Shown one piece after another: positions 746 to 8,153 of a stretch of DNA of 64,000 nucleotides. Every line of letters begins with the position of its first letter. Position 1 is the stretch's first letter. This stretch comes from Candidatus Endomicrobiellum porotermitis. Its GTDB lineage: Bacteria; Elusimicrobiota; Endomicrobiia; Endomicrobiales; Endomicrobiaceae. Position numbers and translations under genes: made by a program. The DNA is taken from the NCBI GenBank assembly GCA_031289055.1, contig JAITQE010000002.1, positions 1-64,000 on the forward strand, read 5' to 3'. The notes below the pieces were generated by a model. That model worked only from the letters and a program-made list of their open reading frames with translations, was not told the origin of the DNA and searched no databases.

Positions 746-1346
746 ATGAAAACACAGAAATTGCGGGATACATGCGCGGATATATTTGCTGGAGCGACTA
801 TTTTTACTAATGATAATATCTCAAGAGATTATAAAAACGGCGGTTATAGAGTTATAAGATTAGCAGACATTCAAAATAATAAAATTTTTTCAAGGATTGT
901 CTGTTTTATAGCGCCAAAGACTACGAGCAAAACAGATACCTTTTGCAAGATAACGATATTCTATTATCGTCCCGCGGGACTATTTTTAAGGTTGCGATTT
1001 TTAATGAAGATACTTATAAAACAATTCCTTCTTCTTGACTTGTATCAGATTAAATCCTGATTTGAACATATCAGTCAATTACGTAGCCGCCTATTTGAGA
1101 CGCAAAGAAAATAGTATAATAACAGGCTAGAAGAATATAAAAAAGACAAACGACAAAAAGTCAAAAATCCAATTAAAACTTATTGACATTTATAATATAG
1201 AAATTCCTATCATTTCAAGTAAGGTTCAAAAAGAAATTGATAAGTTATCTTCGGAAGCGACAGATTATTTAAAAAAGAGTATCCAAAAAAAAACAAAAGA
1301 GATAGAGAAAATAGTTGAAAACAATTGTCATTTTGCAGGAGTATGA
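746..1346 (+). pseudogene. Decayed type I restriction specificity subunit (HsdS-like)
   Basis: The start at 746 reads KLRDTCADIFAGATIFT...YRVIRLADIQNNK, the usual opening of an HsdS target-recognition domain. After a frameshift, a second frame gives DNDILLSSRGTIFKVAIFNE, another classic HsdS segment, and a third frame near 1180-1346 gives a C-terminal piece (LIDIYNIEIPIIS...) followed by a coiled-coil tail. At least two frameshifts and internal stops break the reading frame, and the remaining length (about 200 codons) is half of a normal HsdS. The 3' end runs into the methyltransferase start, so it was probably the first gene of this operon. It cannot make a working specificity subunit. No hsdR or hsdM is visible. 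Confidence 0.7.
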
Positions 1347-1348
1347 TA

Positions 1349-2419
1349 ATGGAAAATTTACAAGCATATGGAAATTTAGTAAGCAGAAGTTATTATGATG
1401 ATACATTAAACATTAACGAAATATTAAATAAGGTTCATTGTTCTGACGCTTTATCCTTTTTAAAAAGAGTGCCGGATAATAGTATGGATTTGATAATAAC
1501 TTCTCCGCCTTATTTCCAACAACGGGATTATGGCTGTGGCGGTATTGGCAATGAAGCGACAGAAGACGAATATATAAATAATTTAGCGTCTATATTTAAC
1601 GAGTGTTCCCGTGTTGTAAAATCAACAGGAGCAATAGTTTTTAATTTGGGTGATAAATATCTAAACGGAAATTTATCGTTAATCCCATATAAATTTGCTC
1701 TCAAGGTATTAGAAAATAAAAAGGTTTTTTTAATCAATCAAATTACTTGGGCAAAAACAAATCCTACACCGAGACAAGAGCATAGAAAGCTAATACAATC
1801 TACAGAGCCGTTTTTTATATTTGCTAAAACAAAAGACTATTGCTTTAAATTAGACGAATTTTTAAGCCATTTAGATAGGAAAAATAAAAAAATAACTCCT
1901 AATTCTTCAAAGATAGGAAGAAAGTATTTTGATACTATAAGTCAGTCAAATTTAACGGCGGAAGAAAAAGAAAACGCAACTGGGGAGTTAGAGAAAGTTA
2001 TAGAAGAGGTGCGACTTGGGAAAATAGAAAGTTTCAGAATGAAAATTCGCGGTATTCATAAAGAAGCATACGGCGGTATGGAAGGCGGACGGAATAATCA
2101 AATTAGAAGAAACGGATTTACGATAATCAAAATAACAGGCAACGCTATGAAAAAAGATTTAATAGAAAGCCCCGTTGAAATAACAAAAGGCAATAAACAT
2201 GTGGCAGTATATCCGCTATATATAATACAAGAATTGGTAAAATTACTATCAAATAGTGGCGATGTTATAGTAGACCCTTTTTGTGGTAGCGGAACTACTT
2301 GTATTGCCGCTAAAAATCTTGGCAGAAAATATTTAGGCATAGAGATAAACCCTGAATATGTGTCATTGTCGGAAGAAAGAATAAAAGAAGCGGATAATTA
2401 TGAGGAGTTCTTTTTATGA
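1349..2419 (+). CDS. DNA methyltransferase, probable N4-cytosine type
   Basis: Site-specific DNA methyltransferase of the beta class. The catalytic motif LIITSPPYF (motif IV, SPPY, typical of m4C enzymes) is near residue 50, and the AdoMet-binding motif VDPFCGSGTTCIAAKN is near residue 310, giving the order IV...I. The ORF track begins at a TTG at 1325, but AGGAG at 1337-1341 sits 7 nt before ATG 1349, which I take as the start (356 aa). The stop overlaps the ATG of the next gene (ATGA). It should protect the host from the adjacent endonuclease. The target sequence cannot be read from the sequence. Confidence 0.88.
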   Translation: MENLQAYGNLVSRSYYDDTLNINEILNKVHCSDALSFLKRVPDNSMDLIITSPPYFQQRDYGCGGIGNEATEDEYINNLASIFNECSRVVKSTGAIVFNLGDKYLNGNLSLIPYKFALKVLENKKVFLINQITWAKTNPTPRQEHRKLIQSTEPFFIFAKTKDYCFKLDEFLSHLDRKNKKITPNSSKIGRKYFDTISQSNLTAEEKENATGELEKVIEEVRLGKIESFRMKIRGIHKEAYGGMEGGRNNQIRRNGFTIIKITGNAMKKDLIESPVEITKGNKHVAVYPLYIIQELVKLLSNSGDVIVDPFCGSGTTCIAAKNLGRKYLGIEINPEYVSLSEERIKEADNYEEFFL

Positions 2420-3537
2420 ATGAAAGAGGCGTTTTACAAAATGCTTATATTAAAGCCTCTAAATTAAATGCTGACAATATCCCAAATATAATTAAAAAAG
2501 ATATAGATATATTGATTTCAAATATAGAAAGTAATAAATCTCTGGTTTCTGCTTTAACAACAAGCCTCTTAAAGAAGATAACAGCGCCTAAACAAGATAT
2601 TCGTTTGCATAGAACAGATTTTACTAATGGTTATTCTGCAAGAGTTTTGGATACTCATATAACATCGCCATTTTTCAAAGATAATTTTCCAAAGTATGCA
2701 AATAAAGAGAGCGCTTTTTTAACATTGGCTACGAGAGAAGAAATTAAATGGACTAAAAAAGATGGAAAGAATTTAAAAATACGGAATGCAAAACTTAAAG
2801 AAGCATTTTTGAATATACTTGACCAAATAGAAACTTTTAAACAAGCCTCTGAAAAATATCTCGTTTATTTATTTTTTGCTCTTATAAAATTATCAAAGAC
2901 TAATGAAGATTTATTTCAGAAAACTGCAAAGCAAAAGACAGAAAATGCAAGCAACTTAAACATTAATATAATCTTATCAATGCTTGCCAAACATTTTCAG
3001 ATTAAGAAAAGTTCAAGGTTGCCTGTAATCGCAATATATTCAATCTATGAAGTTCTTTTTGATAAATTTGACAGATATAAAAGTAAAAAACTTGTTCCTT
3101 TACAGGTTCACACTTCGTCTGATAAGCACGGTTTTGGCGATATAGAAATATATACAAAAGACGGAAAGCCTTTTGAAATAGTTGAGATTAAACACAATAT
3201 TCCTATTGATGAGTATCTAATTTTTGATGTGATAAAAAAGATAAGCAAAATTGAAGTTGACAGATATTATATTCTTACGACTTTTCAAAATAGTTTTAAG
3301 AACGCTACCGAAGAAAATAAAATTTCAAATATTATTTTGAAGATTAAAAAAGAGCGAGGCATAGATATAATAGCAAATGGCATTTTAACAACGCTCAAAT
3401 ATTATTTAAGATTTATAGATAATTATGACGATTTTTTAAAATGTTATACTGCAAATCTCATTAAAGACGCAAAAGTATCAACTGAAATCAAAGACTTCCA
3501 TATAGAAAAATGGAACAAAATAAGAGATAATTATTAA
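2416..3537 (+). CDS. Probable type II restriction endonuclease
   Basis: A 373-aa protein translationally coupled to the methyltransferase by a 4-bp overlap, the typical layout of a type II restriction-modification pair. The middle part shows a PD-(D/E)XK-like catalytic signature: GFGDIEIY followed by FEIVEIKHN, supplying the acidic residue and the E-x-K pair. No full-length family is recognised from memory, and the N-terminal 230 residues are mostly helical and lysine-rich. The frame is intact with normal host-like AT-rich codon use. Position and motif support the endonuclease call; cleavage specificity is unknown. Confidence 0.75.
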   Translation: MNERGVLQNAYIKASKLNADNIPNIIKKDIDILISNIESNKSLVSALTTSLLKKITAPKQDIRLHRTDFTNGYSARVLDTHITSPFFKDNFPKYANKESAFLTLATREEIKWTKKDGKNLKIRNAKLKEAFLNILDQIETFKQASEKYLVYLFFALIKLSKTNEDLFQKTAKQKTENASNLNINIILSMLAKHFQIKKSSRLPVIAIYSIYEVLFDKFDRYKSKKLVPLQVHTSSDKHGFGDIEIYTKDGKPFEIVEIKHNIPIDEYLIFDVIKKISKIEVDRYYILTTFQNSFKNATEENKISNIILKIKKERGIDIIANGILTTLKYYLRFIDNYDDFLKCYTANLIKDAKVSTEIKDFHIEKWNKIRDNY

Positions 3538-3587
3538 ACTAAAATACTATTTGAAATGATATACTGATTGTCGGAGGGCATTACATA

Positions 3588-4166
3588 ATGAGTAAATGTC
3601 AAAATAATGTCATAAGTAAGTGCAAAATATTCTTCAAAATCTTGGCTTCTGGTAATAATAGTCACTTCTATTATAACTTCCTTTATTGCAGTACTGGCAC
3701 TTTCTTTATTTGGGGCATAAAAGTTTTAATAATGCTCTTACAACAGCAGTATCTAAAATAACTTCAATTAGTTTGTCACAGAATAGTATAATACTATAAA
3801 AATTACAGACGAAAATTCTCTTGTAGGGCATCTAATGGGCTTTTATGAAACTATTATAACAATATTCTCAATAATGATATGTTTCGTTTTGGGAATAGAT
3901 TTTATCTATATGCGTAATGTTTCAAAATCTGAAGTTAACAAGGTTGTTGAAGAAGCAATGAATGATGCTTTTTTTAAGTCCTTTCTAAAAGAACAGCTTG
4001 AAAATGTTTTCAAGTTAGACACAAAAGATGGAATGTTAGCGTCTTTCTTGAAGACCAATCTTGTGCCATTGAAAGTATGCAAGAGCAAATAATACAATTA
4101 AATGAAACTATAGTATCACTTCAAGAGTTTGTTGAAAAATTATCTGGCAATGACGAAATAACATAA
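3588..4166 (+). pseudogene. Decayed membrane/coiled-coil protein
   Basis: Pieces of one protein can be followed through several frames: a hydrophobic helix (VTSIITSFIAVLALSLFGA), then NNALTTAVSKITSISLSQNS, then the open part 3835-4092 with a second membrane helix (TIFSIMICFVLGIDFIY), then after a further frameshift an acidic coiled coil (QEQIIQLNETIVSLQEFVEK) ending at 4166. ORF 3835-4092 is therefore only the middle of a broken gene. Two membrane helices plus a C-terminal coiled coil is all that can be said; the family is not recognised. Confidence 0.55.
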
Positions 4167-4201: not shown

Positions 4202-4490
4202 ATGGCAATAATAAGAAAATTTAATCGTTCTACTTCTGGTAATGCTGATGTGTTTGCTAATACTTCTGGTTATATTTTAAGATTAATTACAGATAAGCAT
4301 ATTACAAATCGTCCGCTTGATGTTAAAGCTGTTGCTAAAGCTCTAAACATTGGTCTTGAATACATAGCGTTGTTAGATAGTGAGGTCTCTGGTATATTGA
4401 GAAAAGAGGATAAAAGAACAATTTGTTTACAAAAATGAAGATTGGATAGCAGATATATGTTATGAGAACCACAAAGATTTGAAACTTTAA
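4202..4490 (+). pseudogene. Truncated ImmA/IrrE-type gene, N-terminal piece
   Basis: The 78-aa frame resembles the start of short ImmA/IrrE metallopeptidases, which read ...AKALGIEVEYIAL..DVSGILRK before the HExxH helix. Here DVKAVAKALNIGLEYIAL and EVSGILRKEDKR match that pattern, but the frame stops at 4438 before any HExxH. In a neighbouring frame the sequence runs on as NEDWIADICYENHKDLKL and stops at 4490, inside the first copy of the 37-bp repeat. The zinc site is missing, so it is inactive as a protease. Confidence 0.5.
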
Positions 4491-4507
4491 GCGTTTTGTG
4501 TTATAAT
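4471..4507 (+). repeat. 37-bp direct repeat, copy 1
   Basis: Identical to 5792-5828 over 37 bp, with a further shared TATGAGA just upstream. It contains the end of an open frame (KDLKL-stop) and a full promoter. The two copies bound the Panacea-type gene pair. Confidence 0.9.
4479..4507 (+). promoter_or_regulatory. Promoter of the Panacea-type pair
   Basis: TTGAAA, 17-nt spacer, TATAAT inside repeat copy 1. The coding start at 4532 lies 24 nt past the -10 box. Confidence 0.7.
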
Positions 4508-4531
4508 CAGCGTATGCAAAAGGAAGGCAAA

Positions 4532-5143
4532 ATGGTTTCAGTAAGAAAAATACTTCAGGCTTTGTATTACATTCAGAGCAAAGCTCCGAAAGATAATACG
4601 GCAAAAAGCGACATAATGTATTTGCTAAAACTAATATTTTTCGCCGATAGACACCATTTAAGACATTTTGGCTTTGTGGCTTCCGGAGATAAATATGAAG
4701 CTATGAAATACGGTCCTGTTGCGTCTGCTGTAAAAGATATTTTGTATGGCAAAATGCCAAATGCGAACTCTGCGGAACTTTATTTGCTCAGGGAAGTAGA
4801 ACAGTTAAGCGAGCACGACGTATTGGTGCTTAAACAAGATACCGATGAGCTTTCTGAAAGTTATAAACAGTCTTTGAATTTTTCTGTTAAAACATTTGGT
4901 AAATATAAGCAGTTTGAGTTAAGCAAAATAACTCACGATTATCCAGAATGGAAAAAGCACGAAGACAAACTAAGTAGGGGAATAAAGTCGGTAGAAATGG
5001 ATTTCAGAGATTTTTTTGATAATCCTAAAACATTAAAATGTTCAAAAAATTATGATATTAAAGAAGACCCTTTCAAAGAAGCAGATAGTAAATTTTTAGA
5101 GACGCTCAAGGAAGATTTTAGTGAAAGTGAAATTTCCTGTTAA
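4532..5143 (+). CDS. Panacea (DUF4065, SocA/GepA-like) protein, putative antitoxin
   Basis: A 203-aa protein opening with VRKILQALYYIQSKAP, followed by IMYLLKLIFFADRHHLRHFG and KYEAMKYGPVASAVKDIL, the recognisable core of the DUF4065/Panacea domain found in SocA-type antitoxins and phage GepA proteins. AAGGAAGG at 4520-4527 favours ATG 4532 over the TTG used by the ORF track. The downstream gene overlaps its 3' end by 23 bp, as in toxin-antitoxin operons. Known Panacea proteins neutralise very different toxins through direct binding; that role here is inferred from family and gene order. The C-terminal 60 residues after the domain are charged and not recognised. Confidence 0.75.
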   Translation: MVSVRKILQALYYIQSKAPKDNTAKSDIMYLLKLIFFADRHHLRHFGFVASGDKYEAMKYGPVASAVKDILYGKMPNANSAELYLLREVEQLSEHDVLVLKQDTDELSESYKQSLNFSVKTFGKYKQFELSKITHDYPEWKKHEDKLSRGIKSVEMDFRDFFDNPKTLKCSKNYDIKEDPFKEADSKFLETLKEDFSESEISC

Positions 5144-5576
5144 TCTTTTTCTCATAGATAAATGGAAGGCTTACAGAGGACAACTGCCTGAAAAATCGGA
5201 CAAACGTCATATAATTATTATTATATACATAACAAGAACAATAATAAATTATTTTTATATAACTTCAAAAGTTGACAAGGCAAAGATAATATATAAAAAC
5301 GATAAAAAAGCCTTGATTGAATTAGACACGAAAGAATGGACGAAATTGAAAAAAAAGTCTTGTATCCAGTGTGGCAAACGGCATCTTAAATGTATATCTC
5401 TAGAGACTCTAAAAGCAATGTATGAAAATGACAAGATAGAGTATGTAGACGAGATACCTGACGGAATAAAAACAAAAATAATACAAGCAGTTCGTGATTC
5501 AAAAACATATACAGACCCAGAAAAACAAATGTACGTTTCTACAACCAATCAATCCTGTAAAATCTCAAAGATATAA
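5121..5576 (+). CDS. Unknown protein, putative toxin partner of the Panacea gene
   Basis: A 151-aa basic protein starting at GTG 5121, with AAGGAAG about 6 nt upstream, and overlapping the Panacea gene. An N-terminal half rich in beta-type residues (HIIIIIYITRTIINYFYITS) is followed by a compact Cys/His cluster (CIQCGKRHLKC) that could bind zinc. It then has a helical tail ending in KTYTDPEKQMY. I do not recognise the family. Position, size and coupling match the toxin gene of a Panacea system. The beta-rich first half could be an SH3-like barrel of the PemK/MazF kind, but that is a guess. Confidence 0.6.
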   Translation: MKVKFPVNLFLIDKWKAYRGQLPEKSDKRHIIIIIYITRTIINYFYITSKVDKAKIIYKNDKKALIELDTKEWTKLKKKSCIQCGKRHLKCISLETLKAMYENDKIEYVDEIPDGIKTKIIQAVRDSKTYTDPEKQMYVSTTNQSCKISKI

Positions 5577-5811
5577 AGGTTCAACGCGCAGCATTGCGAC
5601 AAGTTTTACAAGACGGCGAAGGCAAGAGAGATAAAAGAATTTGAAAGAGCGGTAGCAAAAGAAGATTGCGTAGCAGATTGCAAAGAAGCAAATGGAAGAA
5701 ATACGGGATTGCTTATTTTGGTCTAATCCGCAAAGATATCGCGGAAGTTTAGCTTTTAACCGCCAAAAATCCAATATGTATATGAGATACTACAAAGATT
5801 TGAAACTTTAA
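5577..5811 (+). pseudogene. Gene remnants before repeat copy 2
   Basis: Two overlapping partial frames are visible. One reads RFNAQHCDKFYKTAKAREIK... and stops after TGLLILV. The other reads SNPQRYRGSLAFNRQK and ends in RYYKDLKL-stop inside repeat copy 2. The same KDLKL-stop ending occurs in repeat copy 1, so the two copies carry the end of the same ancestral gene. Neither piece is recognised. Confidence 0.4.
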
Positions 5812-5828
5812 GCGTTTTGTGTTATAAT
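5792..5828 (+). repeat. 37-bp direct repeat, copy 2
   Basis: Identical to 4471-4507. Sequence similarity ends exactly at the TATAAT box; the bases after it differ (GCTTCC here, CAGCGT in copy 1). Confidence 0.9.
5800..5828 (+). promoter_or_regulatory. Promoter within repeat copy 2
   Basis: TTGAAA, 17-nt spacer, TATAAT. Only remnants lie immediately downstream, so it may now drive non-coding transcription or the sulfatase-type gene at 6170. Confidence 0.55.
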
Positions 5829-6077
5829 GCTTCCGCAATGAGAATATTATAATGATTTTATGAGACTCGCCGCGTTAAGTAAAATAATTCGTTTTTTTTG
5901 TTTTGCAGATTTAAAAGGAGCCTGAATTTGAGCGTATCCTTAAAATCAAATCTCATAAAGAAAACTCCGACAAAGATACTTGCGTTATAAAGCAATGCTA
6001 TTCTTCCCCAGAGGAAAGAAATGTTATAACAAGCGACAAGTATAGATTACGTTATCAGTAGAGGGTAAAGATTAAAT

Positions 6078-6164
6078 ATGTCAAACTGGAAAGAAGTTCT
6101 TGATGAAATCAAACAGTTATCCATTAAACAGTCATCTCTAAATCCGTTGGATTTTATGGGATAA
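6078..6164 (+). pseudogene. N-terminal stub, resembles SDH_sah serine-protease-like proteins
   Basis: A 28-codon frame, MSNWKEVLDEIKQLSIK..NPLDF, ends at a stop. The opening resembles the N-terminus of membrane-linked serine peptidases of the SDH_sah (ClpP/SppA-fold) group, where NPLD is normally followed by RRKYL. The match is short and from memory. Upstream, about 5935-6060, a further unidentified partial frame (ERILKIKSHKENSDK...) is also broken. Confidence 0.3.
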
Positions 6165-6169
6165 TTTTT

Positions 6170-8153
6170 GTGACTACTTGGATAAAATGCTTTTTAAATA
6201 TCAAGTATCCTAAAGATGTAAAAACCAAGATAAAGATAGTATTATTGTACTTTTTCTTGATACTTGCCATATGCGCATTGTTTCGTCTACTGCTGTGCAT
6301 TAGTTATCCGTCTATATTTTATCAGTTGTCTTTTTGGGATAAGACTGCCAGTTTTATTTATGGTTTGCGTTTTGATATCGCTACTTTTTGTATCTTCCTA
6401 GGGACCGTTTATAGCGCTTTTGTTTTTCCCATGGCGGGGAAGCTGTAAAAAAAATATTATCGTAATTTCTTCCGTCTTATTAAGCTTAATATCGCTTTTG
6501 ATGATTTTGACGTTAAGCGCAGATTTTTTTTATTATCCGCAAGTGAAGCGACATATGACAGAAGATCTGCTTTTGGCTTGGAGAGACAAAACTTTCATAC
6601 TCGGCTACGTATTTAAACATTACTTACCTGCTTTGATTTTAATTGTATTCGTATCGTTTTTTTTAGAAATAAAAATTATTAAATTTATAGGGAAACAGTA
6701 CAATCCAAAGCTTATAAGCCTGTTTAAAGAGGTAGGAATTTTTATTGTAGTTAGTTTTTTTGTAATTTTGGGAAGAAGAGGCGGTTTTAACTTTTCCGGC
6801 ATGCCGTTAAATCTAATAGATGCTTATAAAATTCAAAAAAGTCCGGCAAATATCCAACTTATTTTAAACGGAATATTTACGCAGTATTATTTTCTTAAAG
6901 GAACAAACGACACAAAAGGCGTAATAAATTCTGGTTATCCTGCGGAACAAGCGTTAAAAAATGCAAAGAGCTTTCTTTTGAGCGAGAATGAAATTTTTCC
7001 TGATGAAAAATATCCTATAATGCGCCGTTTAAAGAATAGCGGAAAGCGCCAGAATTACAATGTTGTAGTTGTCTTGTTAGAAAGTTGGACGCCCAAATAT
7101 ATTGATTCTTTTAATGGAAATAAATGTTATAATGTTACTCCTGTTTTTGATAAAATAGCAAACGGCGGAATTAAATTTGTAAACGCCTACTCTGCGGGAC
7201 CAAGAAGCCAGTTTGGTTTAATTGCATCGCTTGTCGGTATGCAAATAGTTCCAGGAACCGTTCATTATTATGGTTTTGACATTATGAGTGCTTTTACTAA
7301 GATTGGCGCCGCTTTTAGGAATATAGGCTACCATACTTTGTATGCTCAATCTTATGAAAGGAAATCTATAATGATGTGTTCTGTGGCTGAGAATATGTTA
7401 GGTTTTGATAGAAGTTACGGAAAAGAAAATTTCCCTCAGTTGATGAACTATAAATATGATAATACATATGATTACGAGATGTGCGACTTTATCTCTAAAA
7501 AAGCCGGAGAAAGCCATGATCAAGGCAAATCGTTTTTTATTTGCGCTTTTACAGGAACTACGCATATTCCTTTTATTCAGACCGCTGCGCAATTTGAAAA
7601 GTACCCGCCAAATTCAGAAGAAAATAAATATCTCAATAACTTGTATTATGCCGATTATTCTATAGGGCATTTCATTGAACAAGCAAAAAAAGACGGGTAT
7701 TTTGACGATACAATTTTTATTTTTATGGCTGATCATATAGCTGGAAATTTCGCTTCCGCTGCAAATACAAAGCAAAGATTTAAAATTCCTATGGTTATAT
7801 ATGCTCCCAAAATTTTCAAGCCGCAAGTTGTTGAATATACGGTTTCTCAGGCGGATTTAATTCCCACACTGTATCACTTAATGGATATAGCCGAGCCGTT
7901 TTCCGCAATTGGCGTCAATGCTCTTGATAAAGATGCCAACCATTTTGCTTTGATATGCGATGGGATGAATATAGTCTTTATTAACAAAAAAGGCGACTAT
8001 ATAAGTAATAACCGAATTATGGTTGTTGAATCTTCAGCCGATAAAGATAGTAGCGAATATAGTTCTCTTAATGAAACATTGTTGTCTTTGGACAAATCAA
8101 TTACAGAGTTAATTAAAACTAACAGATGGTATGATTCTGGAAAGGTTGCATAG
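6170..8153 (+). pseudogene. Sulfatase/LTA-synthase-type membrane enzyme, split by a frameshift
   Basis: Two frames together make one protein. 6170-6448 (GTG start) supplies the first membrane helices; 6420-8153 supplies three further helices, then a periplasmic alkaline-phosphatase-fold domain with VVVLLESWTPKYIDSF, AYSAGPRSQFGLIASLVG (the Ser likely in the nucleophile position), TGTTHIPF and MADHIAGNF. Such enzymes transfer phosphoglycerol or phosphoethanolamine groups to envelope lipids or glycans. The break lies at 6420-6448: the first frame stops at a TAA that runs into an A8 tract, while the second frame enters without its own plausible start. Slippage in A8 would come after the stop, so a programmed shift does not explain it. 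Unless this is a sequence error, the full protein is not made. The catalytic part itself is undamaged, so the mutation is recent. Confidence 0.7.

Follow-up and report, generated by a model that had tools for sequence, protein, structure and literature searches.

A Panacea gene pair between promoter-bearing repeats and its probable link to an rve-type insertion sequence family found 5 bp upstream of −35 boxes in termite-gut Endomicrobium

Results

The Panacea cassette and its neighbours

The window, that is, the whole 64,000-nt stretch analysed here (positions 1 to 64,000 of contig JAITQE010000002.1 of Candidatus Endomicrobiellum porotermitis, genome G000), contains a two-gene cassette at 4532–5576. 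The cassette genes and the insertion sequence (IS) remnants, target copies, promoters and sulfatase-family gene described below all lie on the forward strand. The first gene (4532–5143) encodes a putative antitoxin of 203 aa with a Panacea domain (SocA_Panacea, PF13274, E = 1.8e-21) and the GPV motif in ..KYGPVAS.., and has homologues in G020, G005 and G006. The partner ORF (5121–5576), a putative toxin of up to 151 aa, overlaps the Panacea gene, and its final codons, 5556 onwards, belong to the left end of an IS. Profile searches, known toxin families included, matched the partner to no protein family, and no relatives of it were detected in viral contigs, plasmids, phages or the PDB; its single-sequence fold had a pLDDT of 34.8, which is meaningless as structure. 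The partner stands beside the Panacea gene in G000, G020 and G006 and also in G005, where its frame is split, and its family was found in 8 of the 295 phylum genomes searched. The domain match and the conserved adjoining partner bear out the original prediction of a Panacea-type two-gene unit between repeats.

Homologous Panacea pairs are located at unrelated loci in G020 (C84), G005 (C33) and G006 (C24). The G020 pair lies between inverted copies of another gene (L045: 1199–1642 on the reverse strand, 3311–3745 on the forward strand). A decayed Panacea remnant occupies G000:C20:4541–4795 (L013), where G005:C33 (L046) keeps its pair; from this comparison, the remnant is a loss in one sister species.

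Directly upstream (1325–3537) lie a DNA methyltransferase gene (PF01555) and, after it, an uncharacterised 373-aa ORF, both kept in G005; these genes are possibly a restriction-modification unit. The 78-aa ORF at 4202–4438, cut on its 3′ side by the left IS remnant, had no Pfam match and looks, by eye, like the N-terminus of a larger, ImmA/IrrE-like gene. Downstream of the cassette is a resident sulfatase-family gene (6170–8153; PF00884, 2.7e-37). It comprises two overlapping ORFs here (6170–6448 and 6420–8153) and one intact 684-aa ORF in G005 (L042:5775–7829), and was probably split by a frameshift.

Direct repeats carrying a promoter on each side of the cassette

Two direct repeats with a perfect core of 37 nt (37/37 identity) were reproduced at 4471–4507 and 5792–5828, around the cassette, as had been predicted. 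A repeat search of the region matched 39 of 40 positions between 4468–4507 and 5789–5828, and gapped alignment lengthened the match to 53–55 nt. A third copy of the 35-nt repeat core was absent from the 1.04-Mb genome with up to three mismatches permitted. The full repeat is thus unique to the locus at this threshold and is not a genome-wide promoter element. Judged from these alignments, the repeats are real and chance is ruled out.

The complete TTGAAA-N17-TATAAT promoter expected in each repeat was present at 4479–4507 (P_left) and 5800–5828 (P_right), and the region has no better sigma-70-like sites than these two. The cassette has a separate promoter on either side. The Panacea start codon follows 24 nt downstream of P_left, which may drive the cassette. 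P_right is the resident promoter upstream of the sulfatase-family gene, and a single copy is also found in G005.

Each repeat joins an IS end to a promoter

Three parts very probably make up each repeat: a right terminal repeat from a decayed rve-type IS, the 5-nt target copy AAGAT and the promoter. The IS end inside the repeat falls at 4473 in the left copy and 5794 in the right copy; AAGAT follows at 4474–4478 and 5795–5799 and is the same in G005. The repeat unit extends leftwards into IS sequence at 4406–4454 and 5657–5751. In a DNA search of the same genome, IS copies on contigs C22 and C8 matched these two segments with their 3′ part and 5578–5667 with their 5′ part.

The left remnant (IS_L, 4406–4473), a remnant of an IS 3′ end, is 92–93% identical to the C22 and C8 copies and carries the terminal repeat of the family: a transposase C-terminal piece, IKEQFVYKNEDWIAD (4406–4454), is followed by the right terminal repeat, which runs to ..GAGAACCACA at 4473. 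The right remnant (IS_R, 5556–5794) is an internally deleted IS that matches the same copies. Its left end, TGTAAAATCTCAAAGA at 5556, is similar to those of the C22 and C8 copies and is located within the 3′ end of the partner ORF; a 5′ piece (5578–5667), a 3′ piece (5657–5751) and a right end, ..GAGATACTACA at 5794, complete it. The left flank of IS_R is AATCC and the right flank AAGAT. As these mismatched flanks are not a target-duplication pair, IS_R is most simply a recombinant of two ISs.

Both repeats also contain an open frame ending in KDLKL-stop, originally taken for the 3′ terminus of a resident gene. On the left, this frame is the final part of a broken transposase frame that crosses the IS end, and in the right copy it is incidental. 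The reading of the repeat as a marker of a resident gene's 3′ end was dropped, the frame being transposase or chance.

A single-repeat locus without the cassette

Endomicrobium sp. Po218_bin113 (G005) has the syntenic locus (C17) without the cassette, and the IS tail, the repeat and the promoter each occur once there; this is the one relative in which the empty locus was seen. It shares the methyltransferase neighbours (91% identity) and the sulfatase-family gene (96%; PF00884). The original prediction had proposed that the cassette was inserted with duplication of a resident gene end and its promoter. The G005 site supports duplication of the promoter together with cassette insertion, and the supposed gene end is an IS end. 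The promoter copies at 4479–4507 and 5800–5828 are identical to each other and differ from G005 at two positions, suggesting that the duplication is younger than the species split or that the copies were homogenised.

The cassette had further been taken for a self-contained mobile unit without its own recombinase. It encodes no recombinase, in agreement with the second half of that description. A Panacea unit that inserted itself, duplicating a 37–55 bp target, with the repeat as target or recognition site, would account for the single-repeat empty site in G005 and for Panacea pairs at different loci across species, and long target duplication on insertion has been described for restriction-modification units (PMC3031569). 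We nevertheless regard self-insertion as improbable. The repeat was found at one locus only and is absent beside the homologous pairs at G020:C84, G005:C33 and G006:C24, so that the Panacea pair turns up at differing loci, yet without the help of the 37-nt repeat. Moreover, the repeat is half IS end and half promoter, no further cassettes were found between two such repeats, and the missing recombinase itself speaks against self-insertion. The homologous pairs without the repeat, and IS_R, which forms the right border of the cassette, indicate that it is not a self-contained mobile unit.

A composite transposon, in which two like-oriented IS copies carried the cassette as a unit, would explain why IS remnants of the same orientation lie on either side. 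This is quite improbable, because one and the same 34-nt resident sequence forms the inner flank of IS_L and the outer flank of IS_R, an arrangement not generated by composite transposition, and neither a left end of IS_L nor an outer target duplication was found. Since the remnants at 4406–4473 and 5556–5794 supply homology, IS-linked recombination is a likelier route than self-mobility.

The rve-type IS family in Endomicrobium

The terminal repeat of the IS in G005 is AATATGTTATGAGATACTACA, and the upstream half of the 37-nt repeat belongs to it. This terminal repeat was detected in 18 of 42 genus genomes, with up to 16 copies per genome (reversed control, 0–1). Ends of an rve-type transposase gene lie directly inside it. 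At G025:C9, an rve match lies 220 nt inside the IS end, and the broken copy there, read through by hand, matched rve_3 (PF13683, 5.9e-15). The transposase pieces match rve_3, rve and rve_2, with no match to a Mutator-type family; no unbroken transposase copy was present in the genus genomes examined.

The terminal repeats are inverted, as seen from the opposed ends of short derivatives and from the left ends in C22, C8 and the window. Identical recent IS copies occur in Ca. E. embiratermitis (G066), where one element has TGGAG at both ends, a 5-bp target duplication; joining its flanks restored an open frame of 258 aa that encodes a Fic domain. Matching target copies were not seen at the ends of the short derivatives (174–307 bp; G032, G010 and G013), and the 5-bp duplication was therefore taken from the recent G066 copies. 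The assemblies are drafts. One IS-bearing contig (L122, BNVZ01000032.1) is surrounded by a large inverted duplication (4595–5374 on the forward and 5934–6713 on the reverse strand) with a triosephosphate-isomerase-like gene twice, possibly an assembly palindrome.

Insertion at a fixed distance from −35 boxes

We scored 42 non-redundant IS ends for at least 5/6 of TTGACA at each offset, with 1000 shuffles as control; the ends were located via the terminal repeat, which makes the method blind to selection on the repeat itself. A box at this threshold was found exactly 5 nt outside the IS end in 18 cases (shuffles: mean 0.3, maximum 3). These 18 ends fall at offset 6, against one each at offsets 5 and 7 and 0–1 at the others, and no enrichment was seen away from the 5-bp distance up to offset 22. 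A −10 was present as well, after a spacer of 16–18 nt, at 19 of the 42 ends (expected 0.9). About half of the terminal-repeat ends have no promoter at +6, in part an expected consequence of each IS having two ends. Promoters were found at 3/4 right ends and 0/3 left ends in G066, and at 7/14 left and 7/11 right ends across the genus.

The promoter was retained in relatives lacking this IS at the L096 locus (6 genomes), a groES-like leader (8) and a gatC-like leader (5), with promoter orthology based on short alignments; the names groES, gatC and trpE are our reading of the downstream sequence rather than annotation. At the first three loci, similarity to the IS-bearing genomes stops just upstream of the promoter. 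Thus, the promoter is resident and not borne by the IS. Upstream of rpmH (PF00468; L109/L262/L248), the IS is present in G020 and G061 with differing 5-nt copies, GGGGT and ATAAT, and upstream of the trpE leader the 5-nt copies in G020 and G061 are AAAAT versus ACGGT (L028/L263). These unlike copies argue for independent insertions at one base. The rpmH promoter of G010 probably carries a more diverged IS end, with the 5-nt copy GGTGG.

A second rve-type subfamily, with the terminal repeat GTCGCATATGTATGTAACCAATACA and PF13683 matches on transposase pieces (2.3e-4 and 8.1e-6), has a −35 box at 5 bp at 11 of 18 ends (expected 0.4). Its loci are L205, L259 and L270–L293 (G025, G016, G010 and others), and G025 has as many as 11 copies. 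At the site that it holds in G013 and G025, sister species have the first subfamily.

From these sequence comparisons, the rve-type IS family appears to insert repeatedly and exactly 5 bp upstream of −35 boxes in termite-gut Endomicrobium. Random insertion with survival of only the promoter-upstream copies in shrinking genomes would fit the decay of all copies in most genomes, and intergenic survivors would be expected. Survival alone, however, cannot set a 5-nt distance (18 ends versus one each at the neighbouring offsets), unlike 5-nt copies lie at the same base of the rpmH and trpE promoters in different species, and the identical recent G066 copies show the same position at 3/4 right ends; we consider this explanation very unlikely. 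That the 21-nt motif is instead a regulator operator at a fixed promoter distance, as the constant spacing to −35 and some motif copies without recognisable upstream IS sequence might suggest, is scarcely credible, and for the IS-linked copies it was refuted by the motif's inverted occurrence at both element ends, the identical 123-nt IS ends with four different flanks in G066 and the gene restored by joining G066 flanks, besides its absence from orthologous promoters in many relatives.

Discussion

A route for capture of the cassette

An IS-end composite repeat, IS-linked capture of the Panacea pair and promoter-adjacent IS insertion together form the best explanation of the locus, with a probability of roughly 0.7. 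The features that carry it were read from the sequences themselves: the IS ends, the 5-bp duplication in a relative, the −35 spacing, the resident promoters, the G005 site and the flanks of IS_R.

For the capture itself, recombination between two ISs plus one illegitimate joint, duplicating the IS end and the promoter, has in our estimate about an even chance of being the actual route. The ancestral order would have been IS, AAGAT, promoter and sulfatase gene, the order still present in G005; the IS would have stood beside the promoter originally because insertion 5 bp upstream of −35 boxes is characteristic of its family. A related IS would have been inserted at the 3′ end of the Panacea pair, and homologous recombination between this cassette IS and the promoter IS would have formed the right junction with the hybrid IS_R. 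On the left, we infer an illegitimate joint that attached the cassette immediately downstream of the −10 box in another copy of the locus. The stretch from the crossover to the joint (IS 3′ part, AAGAT and promoter) would thereby have been duplicated, so that the cassette and the resident gene each ended up with a promoter. An intermediate in which an IS with matching flanks comes after the cassette was not found, and both IS copies are so heavily decayed that the crossover points are unmappable. Such a route would let a toxin-antitoxin-like pair gain a ready promoter without its own recombinase.

More tentatively, the transposases of both subfamilies might recognise sigma-70 promoters, or RNA polymerase on them, and direct insertion to a position 5 bp upstream of −35 boxes of essential genes, so that IS ends become a lasting upstream edge of these promoters and recombination handles by which arriving cassettes are set behind existing promoters. 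In shrinking endosymbiont genomes, this would be a low-damage landing strategy.

Comparison with known systems

The IS shares rve core pieces (rve_3/rve_2), inverted repeats of the form TGT...ACA, a short target duplication and a length of about 1 kb with IS481/IS3-like elements, and differs from them in its apparent promoter-upstream targeting. We know of no IS481/IS3-like members with such targeting. No published rve-type IS with promoter-upstream insertion was found in the literature searched (subscription journals lay outside the search), the only precedent being Mutator-type.

The gene pair resembles PanAT toxin-antitoxin pairs (PMC8832971) in its Panacea (DUF4065) domain with the GPV motif, antitoxin-first order and conserved neighbour; unlike in those pairs, the partner here matches no known toxin family and its toxin role is putative. 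For the arrival of the cassette, restriction-modification units, for which IS-linked movement as well as insertion that duplicates a long target has been described (PMC3031569), would by analogy offer the nearest described events. They too are selfish two-gene units with direct target repeats or ISs on both sides and no recombinase of their own, whereas the unit here is a Panacea pair, and the target that was duplicated itself consists of an IS end and a promoter.

Fixed-distance insertion upstream of promoters is already known for Mutator-type elements, where it was described as unusual: TnGBS, ISLre2 and ISKra4 (p-MULT) insert 15–17 bp upstream of −35 (PMC3942029). The Endomicrobium IS likewise keeps a fixed distance upstream of sigma-70/sigma-A promoters. 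Its orientation is apparently fixed in G066, where the terminal repeats differ, and free in the G010/G013/G032 group, where they are nearly equal, a pattern like that reported for ISLbu1 and others (PMC3942029). In contrast to p-MULT elements, it has an rve rather than a Mutator-type transposase, and it combines a 5-bp distance with a 5-bp target copy, versus 15–17 bp. Thus, the Endomicrobium IS works like p-MULT elements without being one. That a second, unrelated transposase class acts at a different distance points to convergent targeting of the transcription machinery, and the existence of two classes makes promoter-finding by transposases testable by comparison.
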